Part shown: positions 1 to 37,161 of the stretch, piece by piece
Layout: the number at the start of each line of letters is the position of its first letter
Position numbering within the stretch: position 1 is the stretch's first letter
The notes under the pieces: generated by a model
Database searches by the model: none
Told to the model about the DNA's origin: nothing
The model's input: only the letters and a program-made list of their open reading frames with translations
DNA from: Veronia nyctiphanis
GTDB taxonomy: Bacteria; Pseudomonadota; Gammaproteobacteria; Enterobacterales; Vibrionaceae
Reading direction: 5' to 3'
NCBI RefSeq assembly: GCF_004116385.1
Contig: NZ_PEIB01000020.1
Span: forward strand, 1 to 64,000
Length of the DNA: 64,000 bases
Translations under genes and position numbers: made by a program

Positions 1-53
1 ACGGCGGACTGTTAATCCGTATGTCGCTGGTTCAAGTCCAGCAGGGGGAGCCA
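1..53 (+). tRNA. tRNA-Asn (GTT), 3' part, cut by window start
   Basis: The first 53 bases are identical to the 3' part of the complete tRNA-Asn at 418-493: anticodon arm with GTT, variable loop, T arm, acceptor 3' strand and CCA. The first 23 bases lie outside the window. It was probably an intact gene, followed directly by its own terminator. Confidence 0.93.
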
Positions 54-60
54 CTATTTA

Positions 61-88
61 AGCCCTAGTCGAAAGACTGGGGCTTTTT
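61..88 (+). terminator. Intrinsic terminator of first tRNA-Asn
   Basis: A ten-base stem with a GAAA loop (AGCCCTAGTC/GACTGGGGCT) is followed by TTTT. The same hairpin design recurs after each tRNA-Asn copy in this array. Confidence 0.85.
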
Positions 89-311
89 CGTTTCTGGCTT
101 TTGATGTTAACGTCCGGTGCCAATCCTCGATTCACCTTTTCATGCTCTCTCTACAAAAACACAAAGCGAAGTTCCTCCAGACCGCACCCGCCTGAAAGAA
201 TATTTAGACTGCTATTTCCAGTGCCAAAGCGACGTTGAGGAATAAAATGATGAAAAACGAGGCAAATCAGTCAAAAAGAGAACAAACAAACATTTTTTAT
301 CAAAAAACGGA

Positions 312-340
312 TTGACTAAAAACGCGAAAACCGTTTTAAT
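312..340 (+). promoter_or_regulatory. Sigma-70 promoter for the tRNA-Asn at 418
   Basis: A -35 box TTGACT (312-317) and a -10 box TTTAAT (335-340) are separated by 17 bases. They are followed by a GC-containing discriminator (TCGCTCCG), typical of stringently controlled tRNA promoters. The predicted start lies about 70 bases before the tRNA. The rest of 89-417 shows no gene I can support. Confidence 0.6.
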
Positions 341-417
341 TCGCTCCGTTGTCAGGAACATGCCGCTCTTATTGAGTGAAAACAAAAATGACAACTAAGC
401 TTACAAAAGCTTACTGT

Positions 418-493
418 TCCCCCTTAGTTCAGTTGGTAGAACGGCGGACTGTTAATCCGTATGTCGCTGGTTCAAGTCCAGCAGGGGGAGCCA
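418..493 (+). tRNA. tRNA-Asn (GTT), complete
   Basis: This is a 76-nt tRNA with a seven-pair acceptor stem (TCCCCCT with AGGGGGA), discriminator G, encoded CCA, D arm AGTTCAGTTGGTAGAA, anticodon loop CTGTTAA with GTT, and T loop TTCAAGT. The body closely matches E. coli tRNA-Asn. It reads AAC/AAU codons in translation. Confidence 0.97.
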
Positions 494-500
494 CTTTTCT

Positions 501-529
501 AGCCCTGGTCAAAAGACCGGGGCTTTTTT
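501..529 (+). terminator. Intrinsic terminator of complete tRNA-Asn
   Basis: Stem AGCCCTGGTC / GACCGGGGCT with an AAAA loop, followed by TTTTTT. It is repeated almost exactly at 628-656. Confidence 0.88.
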
Positions 530-574
530 CTTTCTGCTGCTTAATAAATTGAATGGTTGATGCGAGGCATCAAT

Positions 575-620
575 ATGTCGCTGACCTCGGCGGCCCCGTT
601 AAGCCCAGCAGGGGGAGCCA
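575..620 (+). pseudogene. tRNA-Asn 3' remnant
   Basis: The sequence matches the tRNA-Asn anticodon-arm end (TATGTCGCTG) and the acceptor 3' strand with CCA, but the T arm is scrambled and the 5' half is missing. It cannot fold as a tRNA. It is followed by an intact copy of the tRNA terminator. Confidence 0.7.
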
Positions 621-829: not shown

Positions 830-1887
830 TCAACAGTAAAACTGCTCGACCAAAAATGGAGTGATTTTTTTCAGTGGCAAGACGTGGTCGACCGCGCCTA
901 ACTCAATAGCAACCTTTGGCATTCCCCACACGACGGAAGAGGCTTCATCTTGTGCGATCGTTAATGCACCTTTTTCATGCATCATCTGCATGCCTGATGC
1001 GCCGTCTTTTCCCATTCCGGTGAGTAAAATCCCAATGGCTCTTTCCCCTGCCGCTTTTGCGATAGAACTGAAAAGAATATCGACAGAAGCTTATGCCTCA
1101 TCACAGGCGGGTCATCATTCTGACGACAGTAGTACCGCTTACCTTTTTTGATAACCTCAATGTGCTTGTCGCCCGGTGCAACATAAACCCTACCTTGCAC
1201 CAAGGGGGCTTGCTTGGCTGTCAGTTCTTCGACGTGAAGATCGGACTCTTTGTCCAACCTCTCTGCAAACGAACGACTGAACACCGATTTGATGTGTTGG
1301 GTTACCACAATAGGTGGCATTTTTGCCGGCATATTTTCCAGTAACACTTTCACAGCTTCCGTGCCGCCTGTTGATGCACCGATAGCAATCACATCAACAC
1401 CGTTGACATCAAAACGGCGACGAGAAACATCTAGGTTAGTAGGTTGAGCACCACGGCCTGTATGGTAAGCGTCAAGGTTGGCCCCTGCTGCTGTTTTCAC
1501 TTTCTCAATCAATACATCACGGTAACCTTCAAGCTCTCCAGCAACATTCTTCTTTGGCTTGGGAAGGTAATCGACGGCCCCAATCTCAAGGGCTGCGAGG
1601 GTGACATCCGCACCATGATTTGTCAGTGTGGAAATCATGACCACAGGCAACGGGTGCAAGCGCATCAGGTTGCGAAGAAACTGAACCCCGTCCATCTTTG
1701 GCATTTCAACGTCCAGGGTGATGACATCCGGTTTGAGCTTTTTTATCATCTCACGGGCTTCATAGGGATGTTCGGCAGCCCCCACGACCCGAATGGTGGG
1801 ATCGCTATCCAATATCTCCGTCAGCAACGCGCGGAATAAAGCGGAATCATCAACAACCAGTACTTTGAGTTTACGCTTTCTTGTCAT
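830..1887 (-). CDS. cheB: Chemotaxis protein-glutamate methylesterase/deamidase CheB (frame break in sequence)
   Basis: CheB removes methyl groups from chemoreceptors and is activated by phosphorylation from CheA. The receiver domain (about residues 6-125) has the acidic pair Asp13/Asp14 and the phosphorylation site Asp59. The methylesterase domain carries Ser172 in GASTGG and His198 in TQHIK; the catalytic Asp follows in GMGKDG. The reading frame breaks near 1089. Adding one G to GAAGC there joins ...PPVMRHK to a normal CheB C-terminus ending at 830, so I read one gene of about 353 residues and take the break as a read error. It is the last gene of the che operon; its ATG overlaps the cheD stop by one base (TGATG). 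Confidence 0.93.
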
Positions 1888-2522
1888 CAGAAAAGCTCCG
1901 AGTCGCCCGAATCCACTTTCGGACTCTGCAAAGTACGCTGGTATTTTTTATCAAACCTTTGGACGTCACCTTTGTAACTTCGCATCTTTTTTACCCAGGC
2001 TTTGCCCGTCTTAGGCTCAAAAATCAGCTTTCTTGGAAAATCATCACCGAGGTCATTACTCACCAATACCAGACCTTCGCTTGTGACATAGTCAATGGCA
2101 AACGCAATGTTCTTTTCCCCAACGGCAGTACACTGCCCCATTACCACACCGCCACCGAAAAGTTTTACCTGTAATCTGTGTTTTTCTGCACCCTGCTGTA
2201 TCAAGGTGTTAATCAGTAACTCCATCGCATAATTGCCATAGCGCGCCGCTCGGGAGCGCCACTGTGTAGGCGTCCATTCAGCAATATCTTCGCTGGTACC
2301 GAGAGGCAGCATAAAGTGGTTCATACCGCCAATACCGATTTCCGGGTCCCAAATACACGCGGAAATGCATGAACCTAGCCCCGTCCCTATCAACTCATCA
2401 TCTGATGTCACGTACACTTCACCCGGGTGAATTTTCACCATCATTTTCTGGAGACTAGGGTAGAAATAGCGGGATACACTCGCCCCTTTGGGGTGGCCTC
2501 TTAGTTCGAGAACCTTATGCAT
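1887..2522 (-). CDS. cheD: Chemoreceptor glutamine deamidase CheD
   Basis: CheD deamidates specific glutamines of chemoreceptors and in several bacteria also modulates adaptation through other Che proteins. The 211-residue product shows the CheD catalytic Cys52 in GTGLGSC and the partner His69 in GGMNHFMLP, plus the KLFGGG motif. The C-terminal 40 residues are charged and variable. It lies between cheR (32-base gap) and cheB (one-base overlap), the order seen in F7-type (Aer2-type) systems such as the Pseudomonas che2 cluster. Its presence fits the soluble receptor encoded just upstream. Confidence 0.95.
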   Translation of the reverse strand: MHKVLELRGHPKGASVSRYFYPSLQKMMVKIHPGEVYVTSDDELIGTGLGSCISACIWDPEIGIGGMNHFMLPLGTSEDIAEWTPTQWRSRAARYGNYAMELLINTLIQQGAEKHRLQVKLFGGGVVMGQCTAVGEKNIAFAIDYVTSEGLVLVSNDLGDDFPRKLIFEPKTGKAWVKKMRSYKGDVQRFDKKYQRTLQSPKVDSGDSELF

Positions 2523-2554: not shown

Positions 2555-3412
2555 TTAGAGCTTGCGATAGATTGTCTGGCCGAGGTTTTCAAAGTACTGC
2601 CCCATATCGCCGATATTCTCTGAGTGACCGATGAGCAGAACGCCACCGGGTCGGAGTTGTTCATAAAAGCGCTGTAGGAGTTGCTGCTGAACCTTCCGAT
2701 CAAAATAAATCATGACGTTACGAAAGAAGATAACGTCCATCTTGTTTTTATGGTCCCATTTTGTCATTAGGTTCAATTGTTTAAACGTCACCAGTCGCTT
2801 CACATCAGGTTTGATTCTCATCAAGTCCTGTTTACTGCCTGTACCTCGCTGAAAGCCCACTTTTAGCGCATCAATCGAAATGGATCGCGATGCCTCGACA
2901 TTGTACATCCCATCTCTGGCTGTCCCCAGCACGTGGGTATCTAAATCTGTCGCCATTACCCGGCATTCTGCAGTGTCACCAATATCTGAAAGAGCGAGAG
3001 TGATCGCGATGGAATACGCCTCTTCGCCTGTAGAGCAACCTGCTGACCAAATTCGGACATGACGTTGGTTTTGATCTTGCCACTGGGGGATCAGATGATT
3101 GGTAATAAAATCGAAATGGTGCCTTTCACGGAAAAATTGCGTTTTGTTGGTGGTCAACGCATTAATAAAGGCGACTCGTTCCTCAGGGTCAGTTTCTACC
3201 AGACGAAGATAGTCTTTGAAGTTAAAAAAACCGTGGCGCCTTAACCGTCTGGCGAGGCGCCCGTAAACCATAGAATACTTTCGATCCGCTAAACTGATAC
3301 CCGTTTCTTTGAGCATGAATTGCTTAATGAAATCAAAATCAGCTTCAGAAAAAGAAAACTCCCTGACTTCTCTGTTATTTTCTGAACGATTAAGTGATTT
3401 CAATAGGCTCAA
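2555..3412 (-). CDS. cheR: Chemotaxis protein methyltransferase CheR
   Basis: CheR methylates receptor glutamates using S-adenosylmethionine. The all-alpha N-terminal domain (through RRLRRHGF and the NALTTNKTQFFRE motif) is followed by the SAM-binding domain with WSAGCSTGEEAYS and FFRNVMIYFD. The frame is open from a GTG at 3430, inside the receptor gene, but a GGAGG at 3425-3429 on this strand sits ten bases before an in-frame TTG at 3412. I prefer that TTG, which gives 285 residues. The start therefore lies just after the receptor stop codon at 3415, suggesting translational coupling. The receptor ends in EWEEF, a pentapeptide of the kind that binds CheR. Confidence 0.94.
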   Translation of the reverse strand: MSLLKSLNRSENNREVREFSFSEADFDFIKQFMLKETGISLADRKYSMVYGRLARRLRRHGFFNFKDYLRLVETDPEERVAFINALTTNKTQFFRERHHFDFITNHLIPQWQDQNQRHVRIWSAGCSTGEEAYSIAITLALSDIGDTAECRVMATDLDTHVLGTARDGMYNVEASRSISIDALKVGFQRGTGSKQDLMRIKPDVKRLVTFKQLNLMTKWDHKNKMDVIFFRNVMIYFDRKVQQQLLQRFYEQLRPGGVLLIGHSENIGDMGQYFENLGQTIYRKL

Positions 3413-3414
3413 AG

Positions 3415-5884
3415 TCAGAACTCCTCCCACTCGTCATCGGGGTGTTCATTCTGGACAATGTCACTGTTAGCCACCCGTTTGACCTTCGCCTTACTACGCG
3501 CAGCCTCTGCTCTATCAGCCGCTTTTTTCCGCCTTTCATTTAGCTCAGCCTTGTTTTCCAGCTCTTCTTTTCTTTTGGCTGAGACTTTTCTTTTTGCTGG
3601 CGGTTTAGTCGCTTTTGAGGAGGTGTCGCGCTTCCTGATCGAGGGCGTGCGGATTTCTTCCGACATCGCAGCAGATTCATCGACTTGGAAGAAATTAATC
3701 AGGTTAAGGAGCTCTTTACCTTCTTCTCTCAAGGACTGGCTCGCTGCCGTCGCTTCCTCTACTAAGGCCGCATTTTGTTGCGTCATTTCGTCCATTTTTT
3801 CAATGGCTTTCGAAATTTCGTCGATGCCCGTTGCTTGCTCTTTACTCGCAGAATTGATGTTTGAAATCAATGTGGACACTTCGGCAACCGCATCAACAAT
3901 TTGGTTGAGTACTTCACCCGACTCATCAACAAGACGCGATCCCTCAGACACTTTCTCAACACTGTCTTTAATGAGATCTTTGATTTCTTTTGCAGCACCC
4001 GCACTTCGTTGCGCCAAGCTACGTACTTCGCCTGCAACCACAGCAAAACCACGGCCTGATCGCCCGCTCGCGCTGCCTCCACTGCCGCATTAAGCGCTAA
4101 CAGATTGGTTTGGAAAGCGATCTCATCTATCACACCAATGATGTCAGCAATTTTCTTACTGGCCTGATTGATTTCACCCATCGCAGAAACAGCCTGACTG
4201 ACAACCTCTCCGCCCTTCTGAGCTTTGGTGCTGGCATTGTCAGAAAGTTTATTGGCAGCTTCGGCACTGTCAGCATTTTGCTTGACCGTCGCTGTCATCT
4301 CTTCCATGCTTGCCGCGGTTTCTTCTAGACTCGCAGCCTGCTCTTCGGTGCGCTCACTAAGGTCACCATTACCTTCCGCAATTTCATTTGATGCCGAGGC
4401 AACTTTTGTCGAGGAAGCCGTGATCTTGCCAACCATGTCACGCAAATTGTTGATCGAGCTGTTCACCGCATTACTCAGGGCTTTGAAATCACCTTGGTAG
4501 TTATCAGGCATCTCGACTTTTAAATCGCCCTCAGCGACTTTACTCATCACGCCCTGACACTGATTAAGCGGCTCAACAATGCTATCAATCAGCCCATTAA
4601 TGGCTTCACCTAAATTCTGCATAAAGCCCGTGTACTTGCTTGTATCAATACGAGAATCAAGGACACCGGACGATGCATCGGCTATCAGTTTTTGCACATC
4701 ACGTTGGCCTGCATTTTGCTGTGTAACGTCTTCCCATTGAAGTGCAGGTCCTAGATATGTACCTGAGGCGTCGTACATCGCGATACAGGTAAGATCAAAC
4801 TCAAGGCCACCGACAGCGATATGAGAAGTGAACGGCATGCGCTCTGGGCTAGAAAAGATTTCACGTTGGTGCGCGGGGTTTTTGTGAAAAATATCAACGT
4901 TAACGCCTTCAAGTTTGTCGGCATTAAACCCGGGAAAGAGTTTCTGTAGATCACTCTCCCGGCTCTTCAACATATTTCTCAGTGAAGGATTAGAGTATTG
5001 AATGATGCCGTTTTTATCGGCCATCATAATATTGGTCGTCATCCCCTCTACTGCGGAGACAAGCCGACCCACCTTGGTCTCTTGTGCTCGCACATCTGTC
5101 ACGTCACGCCACTCAAGGCCATTGCCGAGATAATTACCCGCACTGTCAACAATCGCCGATACGTTGAGTTCAACAATCAGCTCGCCGATGGTGATATCGG
5201 TTCTGTATGGCAAGTTGGCAGGGTTCGACATCAACTCACGCTGATGGGCTGGATTGGTGTGGAATTCATCAATACAGCGACCCATCAACCAGTCTGGCGT
5301 CGCTCTGAAACCTGACCAAATTTTACGGAATGCGCTTTCATGAAGTTCGAACAGCTTCAGGGTTTCTTGGTTCATATACGTGATTTCAAAATCACGGTTG
5401 ATCATCACCATCGCTGTTAATGACTGATCAATGGCTGCCTGCAGACGGGCCCGCTCACCATCACGCACCCGCTGTTCAGTGACGTCTTCCCACTCGAGGT
5501 ATTGCCGATGTAATTGCCCTGCTCGTCCTTTATCGCACCTACGACCAAATGCAGTTTGACGTCTTTCACGTTGATCTCAGTTTCATAGGGCATGTTATTG
5601 GGATCAGCCAAAATCCCGCGCTGATGCGCCGGATTCTTGTGAAAAATGTCAATACACTGACCAATGATCCACTCACGCGATGCGCGAAATGAAGGGTCCA
5701 GCGTTTGAAAAAGCTCTTCATGTATCGCAAGCAACTCTACAGATTTTTCATTTACATAAAAAACCTTTAAATCTCTGTCGACCATCATCAGAGCCGTCTG
5801 AGCACCATTTAATGCAGACGCGAGATGTTTAGACAGTTCGCCTGCATCATCTTCTTTTTTTGAATTATTGTTCCACCACGACAT
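3415..5884 (-). CDS. Soluble chemoreceptor with three PAS domains, Aer2-like (two frame breaks)
   Basis: This methyl-accepting chemotaxis protein of about 823 residues has no membrane segment. Three tandem PAS domains (about 26-140, 150-265, 275-390) each carry an F-H-x-N-P-A-H-Q-R motif (His82, His209, His334) and a terminal W-E/R-D-V-T (Trp132, Trp259, Trp384). These resemble the heme-ligand His and oxygen-stabilising Trp of Aer2-type PAS-heme domains. HAMP-like helices follow (about 390-490), then the signalling hairpin tip ([21 protein letters not shown]), a Lys/Arg/Glu-rich linker and the C-terminal EWEEF tether. The frame breaks near 5498 (one base restores NTLEWEDVT) and near 4055 (one C/G restores [15 protein letters not shown]). 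The start is the ATG at 5884 behind GGGGGAA. Oxygen or gas sensing is inference from the family. Confidence 0.9.
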
Positions 5885-5907: not shown

Positions 5908-6381
5908 TTAGGTTGCACTCATATCCGGTTGAGCCACACTATGTAGCTCGTCAAAATCAAACAATTGATCAAGGTGAATTAACACCACATGACGCCCGTT
6001 AACAGATGCAATGCCGTCAATGAGCTTTTGGTCGATCTTTACGTAGCCAGGTGCCGACTTTATTTGCTCTGACGTCAGTTGATATACCTCAGCCACAGCA
6101 TCAACAATGATGCCCAACGACTGCTCTTCTTCATTCTTCACAATCACCACGACCGTGGTGTTATTGAGTACCGCAGCCGTCATACCCAGTCGTTGCCTCA
6201 AATCAACGATGGGGATATATTCGCCACGTAATTCAAGAACACCCAGCATATAGCTGGCTGTATTTGGTAGGCTCCTGACCTCTGCTGACCAACCCCGAAC
6301 TTCTTTTACATCAAGGATGTGGACACCATACTCGTCCTCGTCAATCAAAAAGCTCAGATACTCTTTGGCAACCTCAGCCAT
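5908..6381 (-). CDS. cheW: Chemotaxis coupling protein CheW (first of two)
   Basis: CheW couples chemoreceptors to the CheA kinase in the array. The 157-residue product is a single CheW domain: YLSFLIDEDEYGVHILDVKEVRGW near the start, LPNTASYMLGVLELRGEYIPIVDLRQRLG in the middle (about residues 38-66) and the [11 protein letters not shown] strand. It sits between the second cheW (14-base gap) and the PAS receptor. Two CheW genes in a row occur in the third Vibrio cholerae chemotaxis cluster; they may form CheW-only ring positions or serve different partners. This copy is the shorter and more canonical one. Confidence 0.95.
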   Translation of the reverse strand: MAEVAKEYLSFLIDEDEYGVHILDVKEVRGWSAEVRSLPNTASYMLGVLELRGEYIPIVDLRQRLGMTAAVLNNTTVVVIVKNEEEQSLGIIVDAVAEVYQLTSEQIKSAPGYVKIDQKLIDGIASVNGRHVVLIHLDQLFDFDELHSVAQPDMSAT

Positions 6382-6394
6382 GGGTGCCTCCTTA

Positions 6395-6898
6395 TTAAAT
6401 CAAACCATCGATATTGAGCAGGGCGTCTACATCCAGCAGACTCATCACCTGGCTATCTACATTCAGTAAGCCGCTAACGAAAGGCATCACTTCTGAATCA
6501 CCTATCGGCGGTAAAAGGTTGTCTTCCCCGAGATCCACGACATCTGACACGGCATCAACCACAATACCCATGATCTTTTCGCCGTTTTCATCACCTGTTT
6601 TCAGTACAAGCACGACAGTGGTTGGCAAATAATCGGCGCTACCGACGTGAAAACGGAGGCGCAAATCCATCACGGGAACGATCATTCCACGCAGATTGAT
6701 CACGCCGCAGATAAAGTCCGGCGAATTTGGCAATGGTGTTGGGTGCTCCCAGACCCGAATTTCCACAACGGCCTGAATATCGACGCCGTATAGCTCATGA
6801 GCTAAATCAAAACTCAGGAAATCGGATCCCTGAAGACGAACCTCATCGCTTTTTACTGACTCTTCAACTTCCGGGTCCGCTACAGCTTGTTCAGTCAT
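6395..6898 (-). CDS. Chemotaxis coupling protein, CheW-like (second copy)
   Basis: This 167-residue CheW-domain protein has an acidic N-terminal extension of about 25 residues before the conserved core (DFLSFDLAHELYGVDIQAVVEI, LPNSPDFICGVINLRGMIVPVMDLR, IMGIVVDAVSDVV). It differs clearly from the neighbouring CheW and is a diverged paralogue, not a recent duplication. Translation starts eight bases after the cheA stop. Its likely role is coupling or array assembly in the same system; which of the two copies contacts CheA and which the receptor cannot be told from the sequence. Confidence 0.93.
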   Translation of the reverse strand: MTEQAVADPEVEESVKSDEVRLQGSDFLSFDLAHELYGVDIQAVVEIRVWEHPTPLPNSPDFICGVINLRGMIVPVMDLRLRFHVGSADYLPTTVVLVLKTGDENGEKIMGIVVDAVSDVVDLGEDNLLPPIGDSEVMPFVSGLLNVDSQVMSLLDVDALLNIDGLI

Positions 6899-6906
6899 GT
6901 TTTCAC

Positions 6907-9024
6907 CTATGCAGCTATGTCTTTCACCCTATTCAGAAAACCTGTCATCAGCCCCTGAACATCTAAAATAAGCGCTACCGAGCCATCACCAAGGATCGTT
7001 GCGCCAGAAATACCACTGACTCTGGCGTAATTAGACTCGAGACTTTTGATCACCACCTGTTGTTGCCCAAGCATCTCATCGAGCAATAGGCCAATGCGTG
7101 TGCCACCTGCTTCAACCAGACAGAGAAGTTGATGATCAAGATCGCCACTCTCCCCGAGCCCGAATTCCTCTTTCAATCGCAGGATAGGAATGTTCTCGTC
7201 ACGCAGACGATAGAGTTCGACGCCTCCCGTGGCGACCTTGACGCGTTTGGGTTCAATCTGCAGCGATTCGATGATTGAGATAAGTGGCACCACGTACACC
7301 TCATCGCCCAGTTTGACGAGTTGGCCATCAAGTATTGCCAGTGTTAATGGAAGACTGATGCGGAACGTGCTGCCTTCATCAGGAACAGAAGTAACCGCGA
7401 TGTGACCGCCCAGCTCCTCGATGTTTCGTTTCACCACATCCATGCCCACACCACGGCCTGAAACATCAGAGATGACTTCTGCAGTTGAAAATCCGGGAGC
7501 GAAAATCAGGTTATGAACTTGGTTGTCCGACACGTCACTGAGCTGAATATCAGCACTGAGCAGGCCTTTATCGCGAGCTTTTTGCCAAATTTTTTCTTTA
7601 TTTAGCCCAGCGCCGTCATCGTTTACTTCGATGATGATTGAGCTGCCTTGGTGGTAAGCATTAAGCGAGACCTTTCCTTCTTCCGGTTTACCTTTTTCTT
7701 TTCTGACATCTGGCGGCTCAAGTCCATGGTCGATGGCGTTTCTGACTAAATGCACAAGAGGATCAGTGATCCGCTCAAGGACCGTTTTATCCAGCTCTGT
7801 TTTTTCACCTTCGACAACAAGGTCAACCGACTTGCCTAACTGTGAGGAGAGATCTCTGACAAGGCGAGGAAAACGGTTGAACGCGAAACTGATCGGCAAC
7901 ATTCTGATGTTGAACACACTCTCCTGGAGCTCTTTAGTGTTCTGCAAAAGTTGCTCCAGCCCAAGTTGCAAACGTTCAAGCTTATTCTCGTTAAAATTCT
8001 GGCCAAGCTCGGTCAACATGGATTGGGTGATCACCAGCTGTCCAACTAAGTTGATCAAGTTATCAACTTTGTCGATTTCTACCCGTATTGACGACACAGC
8101 GTCAGCTTTTGCCGGCGCTTTGCTGCGCTTAGTATCACTGGCCGCAGCCTCTGTCATTACCTCGGCTTTGGCTTCTTTCCCTGGCGCGTCATTGGTTACT
8201 GCGCCCTCTGCGTGTTGACTGTCCGACTGTTGATTCTCAGGCATGACATCTGACTCCTGACAACTTGGTGCGCTATCGCCACCAGATTCTCTGGTGATCG
8301 ATAATTCACACTCGTCCTCTACCCACTCAAAAATCTCATGAATACTGGCCTCGTCGATATGCCCCTCAAGCGTCACCCTCCAAGAGAGATAAGACATCTC
8401 GGGTTCAAGTTCGGCAAAATCCACCAGCTCATCAGCAATACACTCAATGGTGCAGTCTGCGCCAAGATCAAAAAACTCTCTCAGGATGCGAACGGGATCA
8501 TTGCCGGTAAAGAACATGTCTTTTTCCGGCTTGAACAGGATCACCCAATCACCACTCGAGTTCTCTAAGCTTTCTTCATTAACCGATGCATCGATGCTGG
8601 CATTGCTTGCTGCGTCCTCATCTGAATGCGACTCACCAGCGAGCAGTTCTTCAAATTGCTTGGTGAGCGAAGCGCTCAGTTCATGGTCGAAATCAGTATC
8701 AGTCTCGTAGGCGACCAACATACTGTGTATGCAGTCACCTCCTTTCAACAGCAGGTCTATCGAATAGGCGTCAAGTTTCCGTTTACCCTCCCTCGCCTCA
8801 TCAAGCAATGTTTCCATATCATGGGTAAATATACTGATTTCATTTAAGTTAAAAGTGGCACCGCCACCCTTGATAGAGTGTGCAGCGCGGAAGATCGAGT
8901 TGATGGCCTCGGAATCCAGTTCAGAATCTGGGTCCAGAGCCAGCAGTTCATGCTCCAAGGTTTCAAGATTTTCCCGACATTCCTGATAGAAAATCTTGCG
9001 TAGCTGGTCCATGTCCAAAGCCAT
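6907..9024 (-). CDS. cheA: Chemotaxis histidine kinase CheA
   Basis: CheA autophosphorylates in response to receptor state and passes phosphate to CheY and CheB. The 705-residue protein has an N-terminal Hpt domain with phospho-accepting His49 in AAHSIKGGGATF, a P2-like region (about 155-245), an acidic Ala/Glu-rich linker and a P3 dimerisation domain (from about 310, KVDNLINLVGQLVITQSML). The ATPase domain follows with N-box LVRNAIDHGLE, G1 DDGAGL and G2 GRGVGMDVVKRNI, then a C-terminal P5 CheW-like domain ending with DGSVALILDVQGL. It lies between cheY and the two cheW genes in the minus-strand operon. Confidence 0.97.
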   Translation of the reverse strand: MALDMDQLRKIFYQECRENLETLEHELLALDPDSELDSEAINSIFRAAHSIKGGGATFNLNEISIFTHDMETLLDEAREGKRKLDAYSIDLLLKGGDCIHSMLVAYETDTDFDHELSASLTKQFEELLAGESHSDEDAASNASIDASVNEESLENSSGDWVILFKPEKDMFFTGNDPVRILREFFDLGADCTIECIADELVDFAELEPEMSYLSWRVTLEGHIDEASIHEIFEWVEDECELSITRESGGDSAPSCQESDVMPENQQSDSQHAEGAVTNDAPGKEAKAEVMTEAAASDTKRSKAPAKADAVSSIRVEIDKVDNLINLVGQLVITQSMLTELGQNFNENKLERLQLGLEQLLQNTKELQESVFNIRMLPISFAFNRFPRLVRDLSSQLGKSVDLVVEGEKTELDKTVLERITDPLVHLVRNAIDHGLEPPDVRKEKGKPEEGKVSLNAYHQGSSIIIEVNDDGAGLNKEKIWQKARDKGLLSADIQLSDVSDNQVHNLIFAPGFSTAEVISDVSGRGVGMDVVKRNIEELGGHIAVTSVPDEGSTFRISLPLTLAILDGQLVKLGDEVYVVPLISIIESLQIEPKRVKVATGGVELYRLRDENIPILRLKEEFGLGESGDLDHQLLCLVEAGGTRIGLLLDEMLGQQQVVIKSLESNYARVSGISGATILGDGSVALILDVQGLMTGFLNRVKDIAA

Positions 9025-9048: not shown

Positions 9049-9408
9049 TTAGAGAACTCTTTGCAGAGTCTTCAACAAGGTTTCAGGGTTAAATGGCTTC
9101 ACTATCCAGCCTGTTGCCCCGGCCGCTTTACCCATAGATTTCTTTTCCACGGATGATTCGGTAGTGAGCATTAGAATTGGTGTGAATTTGTACTGAGGAA
9201 CAGTCCGGACTTCTTTGACGAACTCAAGACCACTCATATTTGGCATGTTTACGTCAGAAATAATTACGTCGTACTGACTAGCTTTGGCTTTGGTCAGAGC
9301 ATCAGCGCCATCATTGGCAGTTTCGACAACATAGCCGGCTTCTTTTAATGTGTGGCTGACCATTTGACGGATCGAGACTGAATCATCCGCCGCTAATATT
9401 TTTTGCAT
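9049..9408 (-). CDS. cheY: Chemotaxis response regulator CheY
   Basis: A single receiver domain of 119 residues with the acidic pair Asp8/Asp9, phosphorylation site Asp52 in SDVNMP, Thr82 in MLTTES and Lys104 in IVKPF. It is the output of the CheA encoded just downstream. Whether it binds the flagellar switch is uncertain: F7 systems in Pseudomonas and Vibrio cholerae have not been shown to drive normal chemotaxis, so the output may be another target. It is preceded by a small STAS-domain gene, suggesting an input or output other than motility. Confidence 0.95.
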   Translation of the reverse strand: MQKILAADDSVSIRQMVSHTLKEAGYVVETANDGADALTKAKASQYDVIISDVNMPNMSGLEFVKEVRTVPQYKFTPILMLTTESSVEKKSMGKAAGATGWIVKPFNPETLLKTLQRVL

Positions 9409-10084: not shown

Positions 10085-10113
10085 GAAAAAAAGCCCCGCT
10101 GACGCGAGGCTCC
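10085..10113 (-). terminator. Intrinsic terminator of mrcB
   Basis: On the minus strand a stem GCCTCGC / GCGGGGC with a GTCA loop (one mismatch) is followed by seven T, about 15 bases after the restored mrcB stop codon at 10128. Confidence 0.75.
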
Positions 10114-10127
10114 TTATTAACAACGAC

Positions 10128-12541
10128 TTACCCACTGAAGAGACGTTCAAGCCAGCCAACAGGCCCGCCTTTACAATAACTTTTCCATTTGCCCTCAGCA
10201 TCCCATACCGGAAGCGTTAACTGACTGTCGCAGTCCGGCACATAGGTTCCTTTTTCAACATGGTAAGCGTCGTCGTCAACTGACTTGGCCAAGTTAAGGC
10301 CAGGGGCTGTGGCTCACGGCGTTTAATGTAGTCGGCGTATACGGGCAACGCCCCCGACGATCCTGTCAACCCCGTTGATTTGTTATCATCCCGCCCTAAC
10401 CAGACAGTCACCACTTCACGCCCGTCAATACCGACATACCAACTGTCACGGTTGTTGTCTGTAGTCCCTGTTTTACCTGCCAGCGCCGCCCAGCCAAGTG
10501 ATCCATTCAGTTTTCGCGCAGTCCCCGATGTCACCACTTTTTTCATCGCATAGACGGTGAGCCAACTCGCCTGAGACGGCACAACCTGCTGCGACTTGGG
10601 CCAGTGGCGATATAGCACATCCCCTTCTTGTGTCACCACAGAACGTAAGGCCGTCAGTGGCGCTTTGCGACCGCCACTGCCAATGGTCTGATACATCTGA
10701 GTGACTTCCATCGGCGTTAAAGTGAAAGCCCCCAACAGCAAAGAAGGAACCCGGGTGATTTGGTCTGGATCAACACCCAAATCTGCCATGGTGCTGATCA
10801 CCTTGTTCAAACCGATATCCAGCCCAAGATTGACTGTTGGAATATTGTAGGATTTCTCTAACGCTGTAATCAGTGGAACCTGTCCGCGGAACTTACGGTC
10901 GTAGTTTCTGGGCTCCCATACTGTGCCATCGCTGTTGAGGCTCAGAGGGTTATCATCCAGTGGTGTCATCAGGTTGTATTTGTCCGGCTCGGACAAGGCC
11001 GCGAGAAACACTGGCGGCTTAGCCAGTGAGCCAATTTGACGGCTACCGTTCAAGGCTCGGTTGAACCCTGCATACCCGGGACGACTTCCACCAACCATAG
11101 CGCGAATTTCACCGCTTTGCCTGTCAGCGATAACAGCCGCAGCTTGTAAGTTTTTCCCTGCCTTTTTCTTCAGTTTGGAAACCGTGCTGACGACAGATTG
11201 CTCGATAAGCTGCTGTGATAGTGGATCCAGAGTGGTGAACACCCTTAAACCGACACCGGGCGTAAACTGGTTACCGACACGCTCATTGATTTCATGGCGT
11301 AACAACTCGAAATAAGCAGGCTGTTTACGTGTGATCCCCACCTCTTTCTCGATACCGAGCTTACGCGATGCAGCGACTTCGTAGTCTTTTGCAGTGATGA
11401 TCCCCTGCTCCATCATCAATTTCAAAACCAGATCGCGTCGCTTGATAGCGCGTTCGGGATAACGTCTCGGATTGTAATAGGACGGGCCTTTTACCATGCC
11501 CACCAGCATCGCTAGCTGACCGATACTCAACTCATTGATGGGTCTGCCGAAATACAGTCTCGCCCCAAGCGGGAAGCCATGCACCGCATTGCCACCCGCC
11601 TGCCCAAGATATACCTCGTTCATGTAGGCCTCAAGTATCCGGTCTTTGCTGTAGCGGTAATCAAGAATGACAGCAATGTAGGCTTCCTGAATCTTACGCC
11701 ACAGGGTTCTTTCACGCGTCAGGAAGATGTTCTTTGCAAGTTGCTGGGTCAGGGTTGAACCTCCCTGCACCGTGCGTCCCGATTTCAGGTTAGCGACCAT
11801 CGCCCGCGCGATAGCAACAGGAGATACACCGCCATGATGATAAAAATCACGATCTTCCGTTGTCAGCAAAGCATCAACCAGAAACTCGGGAATACCCTCG
11901 CGGGGAACAAATAAGCGTTGCTCTTCCCCTTTGGTGTTCATCATGCCAAGTAATCTCGGTTCAATATTTAAAAAACCAAGCTGCTTACCAGACTTCATGT
12001 CTTTCAAAGAGGAAACACTTTGCTGATCAAAGTTGATCATCACATGACGGGCAGGATCAGCCCCTTCTTCAAAGGCAAAGGGGCGGCGGATAATTTCTAT
12101 ACGGGTTGAAGAAGCCGAGTATTGTCCGGGCTTTACCGGCGTGGAAACACGCTGATAATTGAGTAGGCCGAGCTCTTGTTTCAAATTGGCAATACTAACC
12201 GCATCCCCGGCCTCAAGATGCAGGACACGCCCGTAAACAACGGCAGGTAACGACCACAATTGCCCCTCAAAACGGGCCTTAATTTTGCTATCGAGATAAA
12301 TACCAAACAGCGCCATCACGGCAAAGACACATAAACCAAGTTTGACGCTCAGCAGCGCGAGTCGCTTGAACCAGCGTCTGCCAGTTGACGGTGTTTTCTT
12401 GGTCGTTTTTCTACGGCTTGTTTTCTTGGTGGTCGTTTTCTTCTTGGTAGTTCGAGGTGCTTTTTTGGCACCTGTTTTTCCACTTCCACTCTTGCCTCTT
12501 CCCGTTGTTCCGGGGGCGGTATGCTTAAAAATTGTCAACAT
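10128..12541 (-). CDS. mrcB: Bifunctional penicillin-binding protein 1B (frame break near C-terminus)
   Basis: PBP1b polymerises and cross-links peptidoglycan at the inner membrane. A Lys/Thr/Arg-rich cytoplasmic tail (about 1-58) is followed by one membrane segment (about 60-85), a UB2H-like region and the GT51 glycosyltransferase (TTEDRDFYHHGG with the catalytic Glu; GGSTLTQQLAKNIFL). The transpeptidase has the active Ser in GSLAKP, an S-x-N motif in KSYNIPT and AGKTGTT. As printed, the frame stops early with a non-homologous tail. Adding one base to the G run at 10303-10306 extends the protein to the TAA at 10128 with a Cys-containing C-terminus, giving about 804 residues. The hrpB gene lies directly upstream on the same strand. 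Confidence 0.95.
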
Positions 12542-12564
12542 TTACACTGCTTAATTCAAAGTGG

Positions 12565-15036
12565 CTACTGCTTAAAATGTCTCTTGGTTTTATTGGTCGC
12601 GACATGGTTTGCCGGATCATCAGGCCAGACATGCTTGGGGTAACGTCCTTTCATTTCTTTTTGCACTTCACGATAGGCACCTTGCCAGAAACCCGCCAAG
12701 TCTTGAGTGATTTGCAGGGGGCGTTGCGCGGGGCTCAATAATTCCAACACCAATGTGACTTTACCGTCCGCGATGGTGGGAGACGTCGCCTCACCAAAAA
12801 CTTCCTGCATTCTGACGGCCAGCACGGGCTTTTGTCCTACTTGATAGCGTATCCGGTAGCCAGATCCTGTCGGTACCTTGTACGTTTCAGGGAGCAGTCG
12901 GTCAATGTCTTTTGCCGCTTCCCAGCCGATATACGCCTCAAGCGCGGCATTCAAATCAATCTTATTCATCTGGGACCAACGCGTCACAGAGACCATGAAG
13001 GGCGCAAGCCATGTCTCCAACTGAGCAAGCAGTCCATCGTCACTGATATCAGGCAGATCCGGGCCAATACACCAGTTCATAGCGCAGCGTGCTCGCGTCA
13101 ACAGACTTTCGCTTTTGGTATTCCACGAAAGTGACGAGAGCCCTTTTCGCCTCACCGCTGAAAGCAAGGCGTCGGTTATCCGGCTCTGATCCGGTGAAGC
13201 TATCGCCGTCTTATCAACAACTAGCCGACCTAATCGTCGCTGTCGCTCGGCAATGATTCGCCCTTTGTTGTCATCCCAGTCGACCCATTCAAAATCCGTA
13301 AACAGTTCACTGCGTTCATTTTCAAGCTCACTGATATCAAGTTCAGCCGCCACGAAAATTTTACTGTTACCCTGTTTGACTGTCATCAAATCGGCAACAA
13401 CAAGATAGTCAGCGCCCGTCATGGGATGGTCAGGTTCAAGTTCAGCGCCATGACCATTGCTAAGTTGATATCGACCATCGTTACCTCTTGCTTTGGCAAC
13501 TCGGTCAGGCCATGCCACGGAAGCCAGTACAGGCAACCAATAAAAGGCCATATCTGATGACAATGAACAACCCAGTTTCTCTGCAAAATATCTTGCACGA
13601 CGGGCTTGATTACCCTTCTGGCGTGAAACAGCAACAAGGTGCTTGGCTAAATCAGGTTCACGGAAACCACGTAAAGGCTCTTCTGACCATGCGGCCAGCC
13701 AGCACGCAGTGGATTGTGCAGCCTTATCATCGCATTTTTTCGCAAATGCCAGCATGGCAGCCAATCTTGGTTCTGTGCCGAATGCATGCGCCGCTCGCCC
13801 CATTGCTGTGAGTGTTTGGTTTTCCTGAAGCAGGCCAAGCTGTACCAATAACGCGCTGGCTTGTGTCCAATGCAACTCAGGCGGAGAATCAAGCCATAAT
13901 AACTCATCTGGCGTTGCACCCCATTGTGCCAGTTCGAGCACTGTCGACGTTAAATCACTGGTCACGATCTCAGGCTCTGGCACTGCACGCATGCGCTGAA
14001 AGTTATCTTCGCCGTAGAGCCTCAAACAGTGGCCTGCTTCAATACGCCCTGCTCGACCCGCGCGCTGAATGGCGGAAGAACGGGCAATCTGCACGGTTTC
14101 CAATCGGGTGATCCCCGTTTTGCGGTTGAACCTCGCCACACGTTCGAGGCCAGAGTCAACGACCAAGCGAATTCCCTCGATGGTCAGACTGGTTTCGGCA
14201 ATATTAGTCGCCAGCACAATTTTACGCTTTCCACTCTCGCACGGTGCAATCGCCTGTTGCTGTTCTTTCGGCGATAGCTGGCCATAGAGCGGACAAATCA
14301 ACACATCTTCTGACACACGAGTTTTGAGCTCATCCGCCGTACGCTTAATTTCAGCGACGCCGGGAAGAAACACCAATGCAGAGCCAGATTGGGCGAGCAT
14401 CAATTTACTGACCTCTGCAGCCACCAGCGATTCATAACTTGGTGAGCCGATTCCTCTTTGACGAGACACTGGCATGTAGTCATAGGTGACGGGATGACAG
14501 CGCCCCTCTGAGGTAATGACTGCAGCATCAGGCAACAAAGATAGCAATGCATCGTCGTCCAGCGTTGCTGACATCAACATCACTTTGAGGTCATCACGCA
14601 ACCCTTGCTGTACATCGAGTACTAACGCCAGTGATACATCCGCCTGAATACTTCGTTCATGAAATTCATCAAAGATGATCAGCGACACGCCGTCCAGCTC
14701 CGGGTCGTCCTGTACCATTCTTGTCAGCACCCCCTCTGTTACAACTTCAAGCCGTGTTTGTTTGCTGGTGCGGCTTTCTCCCCTCACCCGCAAACCCACG
14801 GTCTCACCCAGTGACTCACCGCGTTGTGAAGCGAGGTAATTTGCGATATTTCTCGCGGCCAGACGACGAGGCTCTAACATCAGAATTTTCCCCGCCACAA
14901 GATCGCGCTCAAGAAGCGCAAGAGGAAGTCTTGTTGACTTTCCTGCACCGGGAGGTGCCTTAACAATGAGTCTGTCTCGCTTTGTTATCCCCTGAAAGAG
15001 ATCATCCAACACGGTTTCTATGGGCAGTTGTGACAA
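12565..15036 (-). CDS. hrpB: ATP-dependent DEAH-box helicase HrpB
   Basis: A DEAH/RHA-family helicase of unknown physiological substrate in bacteria. It has Walker A APPGAGKST, DEFH box IIFDEFHERS, motif III SATLDD, motif VI QRAGRAGR and the HrpB-specific C-terminal half. The frame is open up to 15087, but the first 17 residues match no family start. An in-frame TTG at 15036, preceded by AAAGG at eight bases' spacing, yields an N-terminus beginning SQLPIETVLDDL, typical of HrpB; I chose it (about 823 residues). It is divergent from thpR, with only about 70 bases between the starts. Confidence 0.95.
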   Translation of the reverse strand: MSQLPIETVLDDLFQGITKRDRLIVKAPPGAGKSTRLPLALLERDLVAGKILMLEPRRLAARNIANYLASQRGESLGETVGLRVRGESRTSKQTRLEVVTEGVLTRMVQDDPELDGVSLIIFDEFHERSIQADVSLALVLDVQQGLRDDLKVMLMSATLDDDALLSLLPDAAVITSEGRCHPVTYDYMPVSRQRGIGSPSYESLVAAEVSKLMLAQSGSALVFLPGVAEIKRTADELKTRVSEDVLICPLYGQLSPKEQQQAIAPCESGKRKIVLATNIAETSLTIEGIRLVVDSGLERVARFNRKTGITRLETVQIARSSAIQRAGRAGRIEAGHCLRLYGEDNFQRMRAVPEPEIVTSDLTSTVLELAQWGATPDELLWLDSPPELHWTQASALLVQLGLLQENQTLTAMGRAAHAFGTEPRLAAMLAFAKKCDDKAAQSTACWLAAWSEEPLRGFREPDLAKHLVAVSRQKGNQARRARYFAEKLGCSLSSDMAFYWLPVLASVAWPDRVAKARGNDGRYQLSNGHGAELEPDHPMTGADYLVVADLMTVKQGNSKIFVAAELDISELENERSELFTDFEWVDWDDNKGRIIAERQRRLGRLVVDKTAIASPDQSRITDALLSAVRRKGLSSLSWNTKSESLLTRARCAMNWCIGPDLPDISDDGLLAQLETWLAPFMVSVTRWSQMNKIDLNAALEAYIGWEAAKDIDRLLPETYKVPTGSGYRIRYQVGQKPVLAVRMQEVFGEATSPTIADGKVTLVLELLSPAQRPLQITQDLAGFWQGAYREVQKEMKGRYPKHVWPDDPANHVATNKTKRHFKQ

Positions 15037-31933: not shown

Positions 31934-34530
31934 TCAGACAGCAGCCTGAATAATCACGTCATCTGCTTTTTTGGTGTACTCATCCATACGATGGAAGTTG
32001 AGGTAACGGTATGTATCTGCCGCAGTCGCATTGATCTGCTCAGCATACTCCAGATACTCTGCAACCGATGGGATTTTACCCAGCATCGCACCCACCGCTG
32101 CCAGTTCAGCAGAAGACAGGTAAACATTCGCGCCTGTACCTAAACGGTTAGGGAAGTTACGGGTAGATGTCGAAAGTACGGTCGCACCGTCAGCAACACG
32201 TGCTTGGTTACCCATACACAGCGAACATCCCGGCGTTTCAATACGCACACCAGCACGGCCATAGATACCGTAGTAACCTTCTTCAGTTAGCTGGTCACGG
32301 TCCATCTTCGTTGGTGGTGCTACCCACATACGGGTAGAAAGCACAGAGCCAGACTTATCAAGTAGCTTACCAGCAGCACGGAAGTGGCCGATGTTGGTCA
32401 TACAACTACCGATGAAGACTTCATCAACTTTGTCGCCTGCAACGTCAGAAAGAAGGCGTGCATCATCTGGGTCGTTCGGCGCACACAGGATTGGCTCTTT
32501 GATGTCAGCCAAGTCGATTTCAATCACTTCCGCGTATTCCGCATCCGCATCCGCTTCCATCAGCTCTGGGTTTTCAAGCCATGCTTCCATAGCAGAAATA
32601 CGACGCTCGATGGTACGACGATCGCCGTAACCTTCGCTGATCATCCACTTCAACATCACGATGTTTGATTGCAGATACTCAGAGACAGAATCCTGAGACA
32701 ACTTAACCGTACAGCCAGCCGCTGAACGCTCAGCCGATGCATCAGACAGCTCAAATGCTTGCTCAACGGTCAGGTGATCAACACCCTCTATCTCGAGGAT
32801 ACGACCAGAGAATGCATTGATCTTACCTGCTTTCTCAACAGTCAGAAGACCTTGCTTGATCGCGTAATAAGGGATGGCATGAACAAGATCACGCAGCGTG
32901 ATGCCCGGCTGCATATCACCTTTAAAGCGAACCAGAATTGACTCAGGCATATCCAGTGCATAACACCCGTTGCTGCTGCGAATGCAACCAGACCTGAACC
33001 CGCTGGGAACGAAATACCCAGAGGGAAACGTGTATGTGAGTCACCACCTGTACCAACGGTATCAGGCAGCAGCATACGGTTCAGCCATGAGTGGATAACA
33101 CCATCACCCGGACGCAGTGACACACCGCCACGGTTCATAATGAAATCAGGCAATGTATGGTGCGTGTTGACATCAACAGGCTTTGGATACGCTGAGGTGT
33201 GACAGAATGACTGCATTGTCAGGTCAGCTGAGAAGCCAAGACAAGCAAGGTCTTTCAGCTCATCACGAGTCATTGGGCCCGTGGTATCCTGAGAGCCCAC
33301 TGTAGTCATCTTAGGCTCACAGTATGTGCCTGGGCGAATACCTTCAACGCCACAGGCTTTACCTACCATCTTCTGGCCTAAGGTATAGCCTTTACCTGTA
33401 TCAGCAACAGACTGCGGGCGACGGAACGTATCAGTCGCTGGCAAGCCCAGTGATTCGCGCGCTTTCTCTGTCAGGCCACGGCCGATGATAAGTGGAATAC
33501 GACCACCAGCACGAACTTCGTCATAAAGCACATCTGTTTTTAAAGAGAAGGTCGAAAGAAGGTCGTCGCTGCCGTTGCTGCGAACTTCGCCTTTGTGTGG
33601 GTAAATGTCAATCACATCACCCATGTTGAGCTTGGATACATCCAGCTCGATTGGCAGTGCACCCGCATCTTCCATGGTGTTGAAGAAGATTGGTGCGATT
33701 TTACCACCTAGACAGAAACCGCCAGCGCGCTTGTTTGGCACGAACGGGATATCGTCGCCCATGAACCAAAGCACAGAGTTAGTCGCAGACTTACGTGAAG
33801 AACCCGTACCCACAACATCACCGACGTAAACCAGTTGATGGCCTTTTTCTTTCAGTGCTTCGATTTGTTTGATTGGACCAATAACGCCTGCCTGATCCGG
33901 TTCGATGCCTTCACGGGCATTCTTCAGCATTGCCAGCGCATGCAGCGGGATATCAGGACGCGACCATGCATCTGGTGCAGGTGACAGGTCATCAGTATTT
34001 GTTTCGCCAGTGACTTTGAAAACAGTCATGGTGACTTTTTCAGGCACGTCTGGCTTGGACAAGAACCATTCAGCATCAGCCCATGACTGAAGCACAGTTT
34101 GTGCGTGTGCGTTGCCAGCTTTCGCTTTTTCTTCAACATCATAGAATGCATCAAACATCAGCAATGTGTGCGAAAGTGCTTTAACTGAAAGTGGTGCCAG
34201 AGTGTCATCATCAAGCAGTGACACTAAAGGTTCGATGTTGTAACCGCCTTGCATGGTGCCAAGCAGTTGAACCGCTTTTTCTTTTGACACTAAAGGAGAT
34301 GCGCACTCTCCTTTTGCAACAGCAGCAAGAAAGCCCGCTTTAACATATGCAGCTTCATCAACGCCTGGTGGAATACGATTTTCCAACAGGTCGACCAGAG
34401 TTTCTTCTTCTCCGGCTATTGGATTTTTTAACAATTCAACCAGATTGGCTGTTTGCTCTGCGTCCAGAGGTTTTGGGGCAATCCCCTGAGCAGCACGTTC
34501 TTCGACGTGTTTACGGTAGGCTTCAAGCAC
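31934..34530 (-). CDS. acnB: Aconitate hydratase B (frame break)
   Basis: The main TCA-cycle aconitase, also able to act on 2-methylcitrate pathways, with a [4Fe-4S] centre. Domains in order: HEAT-like helical N-terminus, swivel domain ([19 protein letters not shown]), then the catalytic domains with [11 protein letters not shown] and cluster cysteines in GCSLCMGNQ. Near 32958 the frame breaks; one added G/C restores [15 protein letters not shown] and gives about 866 residues, like E. coli AcnB. The frame is open to 34713, but family alignment and GAGGA seven bases upstream place the start at GTG 34530. Confidence 0.95.
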
Positions 34531-34765
34531 GACTGTTTCCTCATCATTGCGTCTGGCTATTGCACCAGACATCCTTGGAATATATCTCGGCTTACCAGGC
34601 TGGCAAATAATGAAAGCCGCCAACGCAAAAGCTGGGTGCCTGTGCGACCGAGCGGGCATGTTAGCACTTTTTAACCAAAATTTAAAATAAGGCCCCAGAA
34701 CACAACAAGTCACCGCCAGTATGTTGAAAGTACAGCGATATAGTGTTGCCAGAGCCCGTTAAACG

Positions 34766-37080
34766 TTAAAACTGCGTACCCAAACTGAGATAGAAAGAAT
34801 CATGTTCCGAGTCGGTAATGCCATAAGCAACCAACACCGGACCAATAATCGTATCTACCCCCGCAAATATACTGCCAGCATTGTAAAATGGTATGTCTTT
34901 TATCGAAAAGTCAGGGTTATTCCACACTGATCCTCGCTCAATAGAGGCACCCACATAGACAGGCGTTTTAAAAAGACCAAAATCGTTATCTTGAAGGCGA
35001 TACCTGTAGATCAATGAGCCAAAGGCTGAGTTATCGCCACGCAGCCTGCCTTGAGGGAGGCCTGATAAGTTAAATAAGCCACCAAGCTCGCGAAGCCTCA
35101 CAACAAGCTCCCCAGTATCAAAACCAAAACTTGTGATAGCAGCAGCCCTGTCAACATCCGTCCCCTGATAACTTAACTCTCCAAAGAGAGTATGACGTCC
35201 AATGCTTTGAGCATGTGATAATTCGACTTCCACTTGATTGGAGTCGATGACTTTCTCAAAGAGTTGGTTATCAAGAACGGTATCTCTGACTGAGCTCAGC
35301 TGAGCATGGAAGTAACTTCCTGATGACGGAAATACTCGGTTATCAAGGGTATCAAGTGTAATACTGATATACTGCTTGTCTTGGCTAAACTCACGGCGAA
35401 ACAGAGCACCGCCTCTTGTTTCTTCCCCCACCACAAAGTCAGCACCGACGCTAAACTGGCTCCAAAGTTCTGGTTGCCAGCCCAATTCAGCGCCCATTCT
35501 CCATTCTTTCGTTCTTGAGGTCAGAATGATAACGCTTTCCTGTTCATCAATTTTTTTCTCGTCATCCGTCAGATCGTACTGCGTCACTTGCTCAGCGATA
35601 TATTTACCCCATGGACGAATAAAAAATTCCTGTGACGCAACGAGAGGCGCGAACAGTTCTACACCCGCCACTTTTCGATTACCTAACTCAAGCTCAGTCA
35701 TCAGCTCCGCACCGTATTCGCTGAGGCCAGTATTGGTGATTCTGACCCCCGCAGAATAAAGGGTGCTGGTACTGAAATCATCCTCAATATTGACGCGAAA
35801 ATCGAGAAAACTCGGGCCCCAACTTCTTTCTTCGACATCGAGAAACAGAGCATTACTGCCGTCATTTTTATGTATTTCAAAATCAACTGACTCAAAGCGA
35901 TCCAACGCATTGAGGTTGGAAATACTCTCTTCCAGTTTTGCAGTATCGAGAAGACCGAGATCGACATCAAGGCGGTCTTTTAACACCTCATCAGACAGGG
36001 ACGTGTTGTTATTGATAACAACATCAGAAATCGTCATCTGATCGCCAAATTCAAGAAGCTTTCTACGCGCCTGTTTGCGTTCAACATAATCCTGATAGAC
36101 CGCAGAGTCGACTTTCAGTGGCTTAAGCGATGCTTCTGAGAGACGAGTTATTTGATAACCCTTTTGGAGTGCTTCCGGCATTCTGTCGAAATCAGCCGTT
36201 TCCATGTCACCAACAGCGGGTGTCAGTAGCACATCCTTGTCTGATAAATTAGCAATCTGCGCCTTTGTGGTGTTGCGAACGAGAAAGTTAATGAGCTGAT
36301 TACTGACTGATAAAAGGTTTTTAGGTTGTCCGCTTTCGCGTAGTCAGTGCTGATATCAACGGCGATGACGATATCTGCCCCCATCGCCTTAACGATGTCC
36401 ACGGGCATATTGTTCACTGAGCCACCATCCACCAGCAACTTCCCATCTAACTTAACCGGTGGTAATGCGCCGGGCACCGACATACTTGCGAGCATCGCCT
36501 TCGTCAACACACCTTTATCAATCACCACGGTACCGAGGTTTTCAATGTCTGTTGCCACGGCGCGGAAAGGAATCACTAAATCGTCGAAGGACTCCAACGC
36601 TGGCAGTGTTCCTGTCGACTCACGCAGAATGCGCTTCATGTATTGTCCCTGAACAATCCCCTGCGGTGTCTTTATCTCGGTGCCTTCGTAGCCAATGCTG
36701 GCCTGTATATTGTACCTATCGTCAGAGGCTTTCGAATGAACACGGCGGTCCGCCCTGCTCTCTCTATCCTGATATCCCTGATTCCACTCAATCGTGTCTA
36801 TCAATACTTCAATTTCATCTGCACTCATGCCTGCAGCATATAACCCACCAACGTAGGCGCCCATACTGGTGCCTGCAATATAATCGACAGGAATATGCAT
36901 TTCTTCTAACGCTTTTAATACGCCAACATGCGCAGCACCTTTCGCACCACCGCCACTGAGGGCAAGGCCGATTTTAGGTCTTTCAGACTTTTCTTCTGCA
37001 AAGGTTAAAGTTGAGGAGAAAATTGCCGACAAAAGAACTGCAGCGGTAAAAATTCTTCTCAATGAACACTCAAAAACCAT
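34766..37080 (-). CDS. Patatin-like phospholipase with POTRA and beta-barrel, type Vd-like (frame break)
   Basis: A secreted or surface lipase of about 771 residues built like PlpD. It has a signal peptide (about 1-28), a patatin domain with oxyanion loop SGGGAKGAAH, nucleophile Ser in GTSMG and catalytic Asp in DGG, then one POTRA-like domain (about 400-450). A C-terminal Omp85-type barrel ends in the outer-membrane signature LSLGTQF. The frame breaks at 36300-36301; one extra T/A restores FYQSVNQLIN, the same spacing as in its paralogue at 39155-41481. The two are on the same strand and flank an opposite-strand chemoreceptor. The lipid substrate is unknown. Confidence 0.88.
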
Positions 37081-37161
37081 TCGAAGTTGCTCCGCGTTTT
37101 TCCTACTTATAAAAATTCACTACAACGTAGCCGCGCCCCTTGGCGGTTCTCGGAGAGAAAC

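Follow-up and report, generated by a model that had tools for sequence, protein, structure and literature searches.

A tri-PAS Aer2 chemoreceptor in a chemotaxis operon of Veronia nyctiphanis, and the variation of PAS number and heme ligands among its relatives

The chemoreceptor gene found in the analyzed stretch of Veronia nyctiphanis DNA (positions 1 to 64,000 of contig NZ_PEIB01000020.1, below called the window) is almost certainly an ordinary aer2, the product of which would be a cytoplasmic chemoreceptor with three PAS domains that senses heme-bound oxygen and controls the F7 CheA of its own operon. The receptor was assigned to Aer2 because of its F7 operon, its signalling domain of the 36H type and its CheR tether EWEEF. 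The Aer2-type identity put forward in an earlier reading of the sequence alone was confirmed, as the heme His, the O2-contact Trp, the HAMP region followed by a 36H domain, the CheR pentapeptide, the F7 cluster and the cytoplasmic location were all found. Heme binding, O2 binding, the roles of the single PAS domains and the sign of the response are predicted for this receptor by analogy with studied Aer2 proteins. The tri-PAS architecture is already known, and the receptor adds one member to it. The coordinates of the features are collected in Table 1.

Table 1. Features of the aer2 region and of other frameshifted genes in the window
Feature	Position	Strand	Basis
aer2, soluble tri-PAS chemoreceptor, ~823 aa once two frameshifts are read through; ATG at 5884, stop codon ending at 3415	3415..5884	-	ORFs, Pfam domains, orthologs in one open frame
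PAS1, ~residues 25-138, H82, W132; first frameshift just before W132	5471..5812	-	PDB match, alignment
PAS2, ~residues 152-265, H209, W259	5090..5431	-	PDB match, alignment, AlphaFold2 model
PAS3, ~residues 277-390, H334, W384; ortholog of V. cholerae Aer2 PAS2 (6CEQ)	4715..5056	-	PDB match, alignment, AlphaFold2 model
HAMP region; Pfam HAMP_2 at residues 419-481, HAMP_2/HAMP at 419-483; further upstream HAMP presumed by analogy with V. cholerae Aer2	4440..4712	-	Pfam
MCP signalling hairpin, 36H (Tsr) type; second frameshift near 4056	3722..4440	-	Pfam, Tsr alignment
C-terminal CheR-tethering pentapeptide EWEEF and stop codon	3415..3432	-	motif of PMC7184735
cheY, response regulator	9049..9408	-	ORF and Pfam
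cheA: Hpt, dimerisation, ATPase and CheW domains	6907..9024	-	ORF and Pfam
cheW, first	6395..6898	-	ORF and Pfam
cheW, second	5908..6381	-	ORF and Pfam
cheR methyltransferase; start overlaps aer2 end	2555..3430	-	ORF and Pfam
cheD	1887..2522	-	ORF and Pfam
cheB, one frameshift near 1088	836..1902	-	Pfam, comparison with congener
cheB, mrcB, acnB, two neighbouring patatin-like genes: one-base indels	836-1902, 10131-12379, 31937-34551, 34769-37098, 39158-41382		comparison with congener

The three pairs of FHxNPAHQR and WxDVT signatures were located exactly where the sequence-only reading had placed them, in a numbering from H82 to W384 that is valid only with the pieces of the aer2 reading frame joined across both frameshifts, as that reading had tacitly done. 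The His signatures are FHKNPAHQR at residue 81 (H82), FHTNPAHQR at 208 (H209) and FHKNPAHQR at 333 (H334), and the Trp signatures are WEDVT at 132, WRDVT at 259 and WEDVT at 384, where the DVT that follows each Trp is a DxT motif. In the alignment with the P. aeruginosa and V. cholerae Aer2 PAS domains, which that reading had suggested as a check, all three His residues fell on the heme-ligand column and all three Trp residues on the O2-contact column, and the misplacement of these residues that was named there as a refutation was not observed. The first His of each FHxNPAHQR signature aligned with H234 of P. aeruginosa Aer2, and the Trp with that of the sequence QWTDRT, 49 residues on, which we take to be W283, the O2 contact of this protein on the last PAS strand. 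H234 is the heme ligand of P. aeruginosa Aer2 (PMC13401364). The ligand residues are identical in PAS1, PAS2 and PAS3 of the window protein, and the 6CEQ chain of V. cholerae Aer2 has a Leu in the Trp column.

When each PAS domain was searched singly against PDB sequences, the sole matches were 6CEQ (V. cholerae Aer2) and 3VOL and 4HI4 (P. aeruginosa Aer2). The E values of these matches ranged from 1e-11 to ~1e-46, with the best value for each domain being 1e-19 for PAS1, 6e-17 for PAS2 and 5e-46 for PAS3; because each domain matches Aer2 PAS chains, the repeats are not a chance resemblance. An AlphaFold2 model of the PAS2-PAS3-HAMP segment had a mean pLDDT of 76, with mostly 80-90 in the PAS domains. 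The PAS2-PAS3 model superimposed on 6CEQ with a Z score of 18.4 and 1.3 A over 106 residues at 66% identity, and on 3VOL and 4HI4 with Z scores of 17.6 and 17.2. These three structures were the top neighbours of the model by Z score, with a clear gap to all other PAS structures.

In the signalling half of the protein, only one HAMP domain scored in Pfam, and MCPsignal was found at residues 546-703. The hairpin aligned with that of the E. coli serine receptor Tsr (36H) with no internal gaps except for the placeholder at the read-through. The EWEEF tail fits the CheR motif x-[HFYW]-x2-[HFYW], and a tether of this kind has been reported to be fundamental to Aer2-like receptors (PMC7184735). No membrane-spanning stretch was found in the receptor by hydropathy, the maximum over 19 residues being 1.3 as compared to 2.65 in an anchored relative, which bears out the earlier description of the protein as soluble. 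The gene order around the receptor is cheY-cheA-cheW-cheW-aer2-cheR-cheD-cheB, and the F7 class of the operon was assigned from this order and the receptor class rather than from a CheA tree. One further cheA is present elsewhere in the V. nyctiphanis genome.

Three PAS domains have been observed before in Aer2 receptors. The sequence-only reading had taken one or two PAS domains as the known limit, which does not hold, as V. vulnificus Aer2 is already a tri-PAS-heme sensor (Stuffle et al. 2022; also Orillard & Watts 2022). According to a review, its three N-terminal PAS domains all bind heme with similar O2 affinities, PAS2 regulates the signalling of PAS3 and PAS3 passes the signal on, while the wording on PAS1 is ambiguous (Stuffle et al. 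2022, in PMC13401364). Compared by description, not by sequence, the V. vulnificus and window receptors are both Aer2 chemoreceptors with three N-terminal PAS domains and show no architectural difference. The same review describes L. interrogans Aer2 as a heme oxygen sensor which also has three N-terminal PAS domains; it differs from the window protein, in which no membrane span was found by hydropathy, in being membrane-bound, and its signal output is described as opposite (PMC13401364). P. aeruginosa Aer2/McpB (3VOL, 4HI4) shares with the window receptor the heme His, the O2-contact Trp, the order of HAMP and signalling domain after the last PAS and the F7 system, but its single PAS is preceded by three HAMP domains and followed by two. 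In the dual PAS-heme Aer2 of V. cholerae (6CEQ), PAS2 is orthologous to the window PAS3 (E 5e-46), but the middle PAS is absent; according to the domain tree, this lineage may have lost PAS2.

The survey of related genomes for three-PAS forms that the earlier reading had called for covered 297 genomes of the same family, 88 of which had strong aer2 relatives, and it showed that three is the commonest number of PAS domains (60 of the 83 full-length family orthologs). The remaining full-length genes encode two (eight genes), four (10 genes), five (three genes) or six PAS domains (two genes). All His and Trp residues are kept in 54 of the 60 tri-PAS orthologs. Tri-PAS forms are also present in other families of the order, and a scan of genome contigs with a single sequence returned four distant relatives only. 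Hence, the tri-PAS Aer2 of V. vulnificus represents the usual form in the family and not an exception, and three PAS domains as a novel domain number are ruled out by the published case (PMC13401364) together with the survey. Six PAS domains were observed at L094 and L099, five at L019, L091 and L096, and four at L085, L092 and others as well as at L125 (Vibrio sp. THAF64); every His and Trp is retained in these four- to six-PAS receptors.

In a phylogeny of the individual PAS domains, which is approximate and carries no formal test, PAS1, PAS2 and PAS3 of the window protein fell into three separate clades together with their counterparts from other genera. The extra PAS copies of the larger receptors mostly grouped with PAS2, and the two-PAS receptors of the V. 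cholerae type carry PAS1 and PAS3 types. Taken together with the PAS numbers of the survey, these clades suggest that three PAS domains are ancestral in the family and that V. cholerae Aer2 is a reduced form.

By analogy with these systems, the window receptor would form a cytoplasmic dimer in which three PAS domains are stacked. Each of them would hold one b-type heme on its conserved His and contact the bound O2 with its conserved Trp, and the stack would be followed by one or more HAMP domains, the 36H signalling hairpin and the CheR-tethering tail. Binding of O2 to the hemes would alter the PAS core, and PAS3, which adjoins the HAMP unit, would relay the signal via its DxT motif and control the F7 CheA of the same operon. 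PAS3 would more likely be the output sensor, and PAS1 and PAS2 would most likely modulate it. In five tri-PAS orthologs of genus g9 (L022-L025, L112), the His is lost from PAS1 and PAS2, while both His and Trp are kept in PAS3, which agrees with such a role of this domain.

A different suggestion of the sequence-only reading, that three PAS domains in series widen the oxygen range or sense several gases, found no support in the comparison with V. vulnificus. The three PAS domains of the window protein are mutually diverged and belong to clades kept separate across genera, so that each position has its own conserved role, which would fit three hemes that are tuned to different oxygen levels or gases and thereby widen the response range. 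However, such tuning is unlikely, because the V. vulnificus hemes, as reviewed, are similar in O2 affinity and their domains differ in signalling role (PMC13401364), and because all three PAS domains of the window protein have identical ligand residues.

The sole other genome of the genus (G001) contains an aer2 ortholog (locus L117, positions 10096-12786) in one open frame and in the same operon; its flanking genes are also the same and include mrcB and hrpB on the upstream side. In this congener receptor the heme-ligand position is occupied by Tyr in PAS2 and by Phe in PAS3, and in PAS1 the His is kept, the Trp is replaced by Phe and the NPAHQR sequence is lost. The PAS domains of the congener were farther than those of the window protein from 54 other sequences in every comparison, with median identities of 0.39 versus 0.61, 0.56 versus 0.65 and 0.59 versus 0.67, although the 54 comparisons amount to one relative-rate test as they share ancestry. 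The HAMP and signalling domains of the two receptors were about equally distant (0.56 versus 0.58 and 0.78 versus 0.79). The PAS domains, but not the HAMP and signalling domains, evolved faster in the congener than in the lineage of the window receptor. No further PAS-heme candidate turned up when the congener genome was searched with PAS3. The simplest reading of these substitutions is that heme-based O2 sensing by PAS2 and PAS3 has been lost in the congener; alternatively, the heme may be held by another ligand residue. This loss of ligands is a mildly new point, which lies outside the window.

A tentative view, to which we give somewhat less than an even chance, is that the signalling scaffold of Aer2 stays fixed, with PAS number and heme loading changing on it as modules separate from each other. 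The number of PAS domains would vary from two to six by loss and duplication, mostly of the middle domain, and the tri-PAS receptor of the congener, with its ligands lost but its output half conserved, would be a natural non-oxygen (or redox/energy) Aer2. The two congeners, of which one has three intact heme sites and the other has lost ligands, together with the naturally occurring receptors of two to six PAS domains, provide a comparative set on the role of the extra hemes and on F7 output.

Two one-base frameshifts, located around 5500 and 4056, divide aer2 in the window into three overlapping open reading frames (5899-5417, 5468-3867 and 4041-3415 in the ORF listing). Relative to the syntenic DNA of the congener, one frame change is also seen in each of at least five further genes of the contig, namely mrcB, cheB, acnB and two patatin-like genes. 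The 61 aligned full-length relatives of aer2 each have one uninterrupted frame, and nearly all of them conserve the stretches that span the two junctions. The frameshifts are best explained as probable assembly indels, because other genes of the contig are broken alike and the full-length orthologs are open at these sites. The presence of three reading frames in place of one could also mean that aer2 was inactivated by two frameshifts and is a pseudogene in this strain. This is very improbable, given that the frame changes extend to housekeeping acnB as well as to mrcB and cheB, and that conservation of the Aer2 protein is otherwise complete beyond both breaks, with every ligand residue present. 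Programmed frameshifting was set aside, as the frame runs uninterrupted through the two junctions in the aligned full-length relatives. The two patatin-like genes of the contig are paralogs, and both match the same congener protein.

That the PAS domains hold another cofactor, for example a flavin, or none, and that the receptor senses the redox or energy state, is scarcely credible. In favour of it, PAS folds in general bind many cofactors and the congener keeps the gene though its heme ligands are lost; against it, the window protein has three intact His/Trp pairs and its best matches are heme-bound Aer2 structures.

At the start of the contig (window positions 1-620), a tRNA-Asn gene is located at 418-493, a second partial copy of it lies at the very start, and a diverged repeat of the 3′ flank of tRNA-Asn follows after position 600; the contig terminus may represent a collapsed tRNA repeat.
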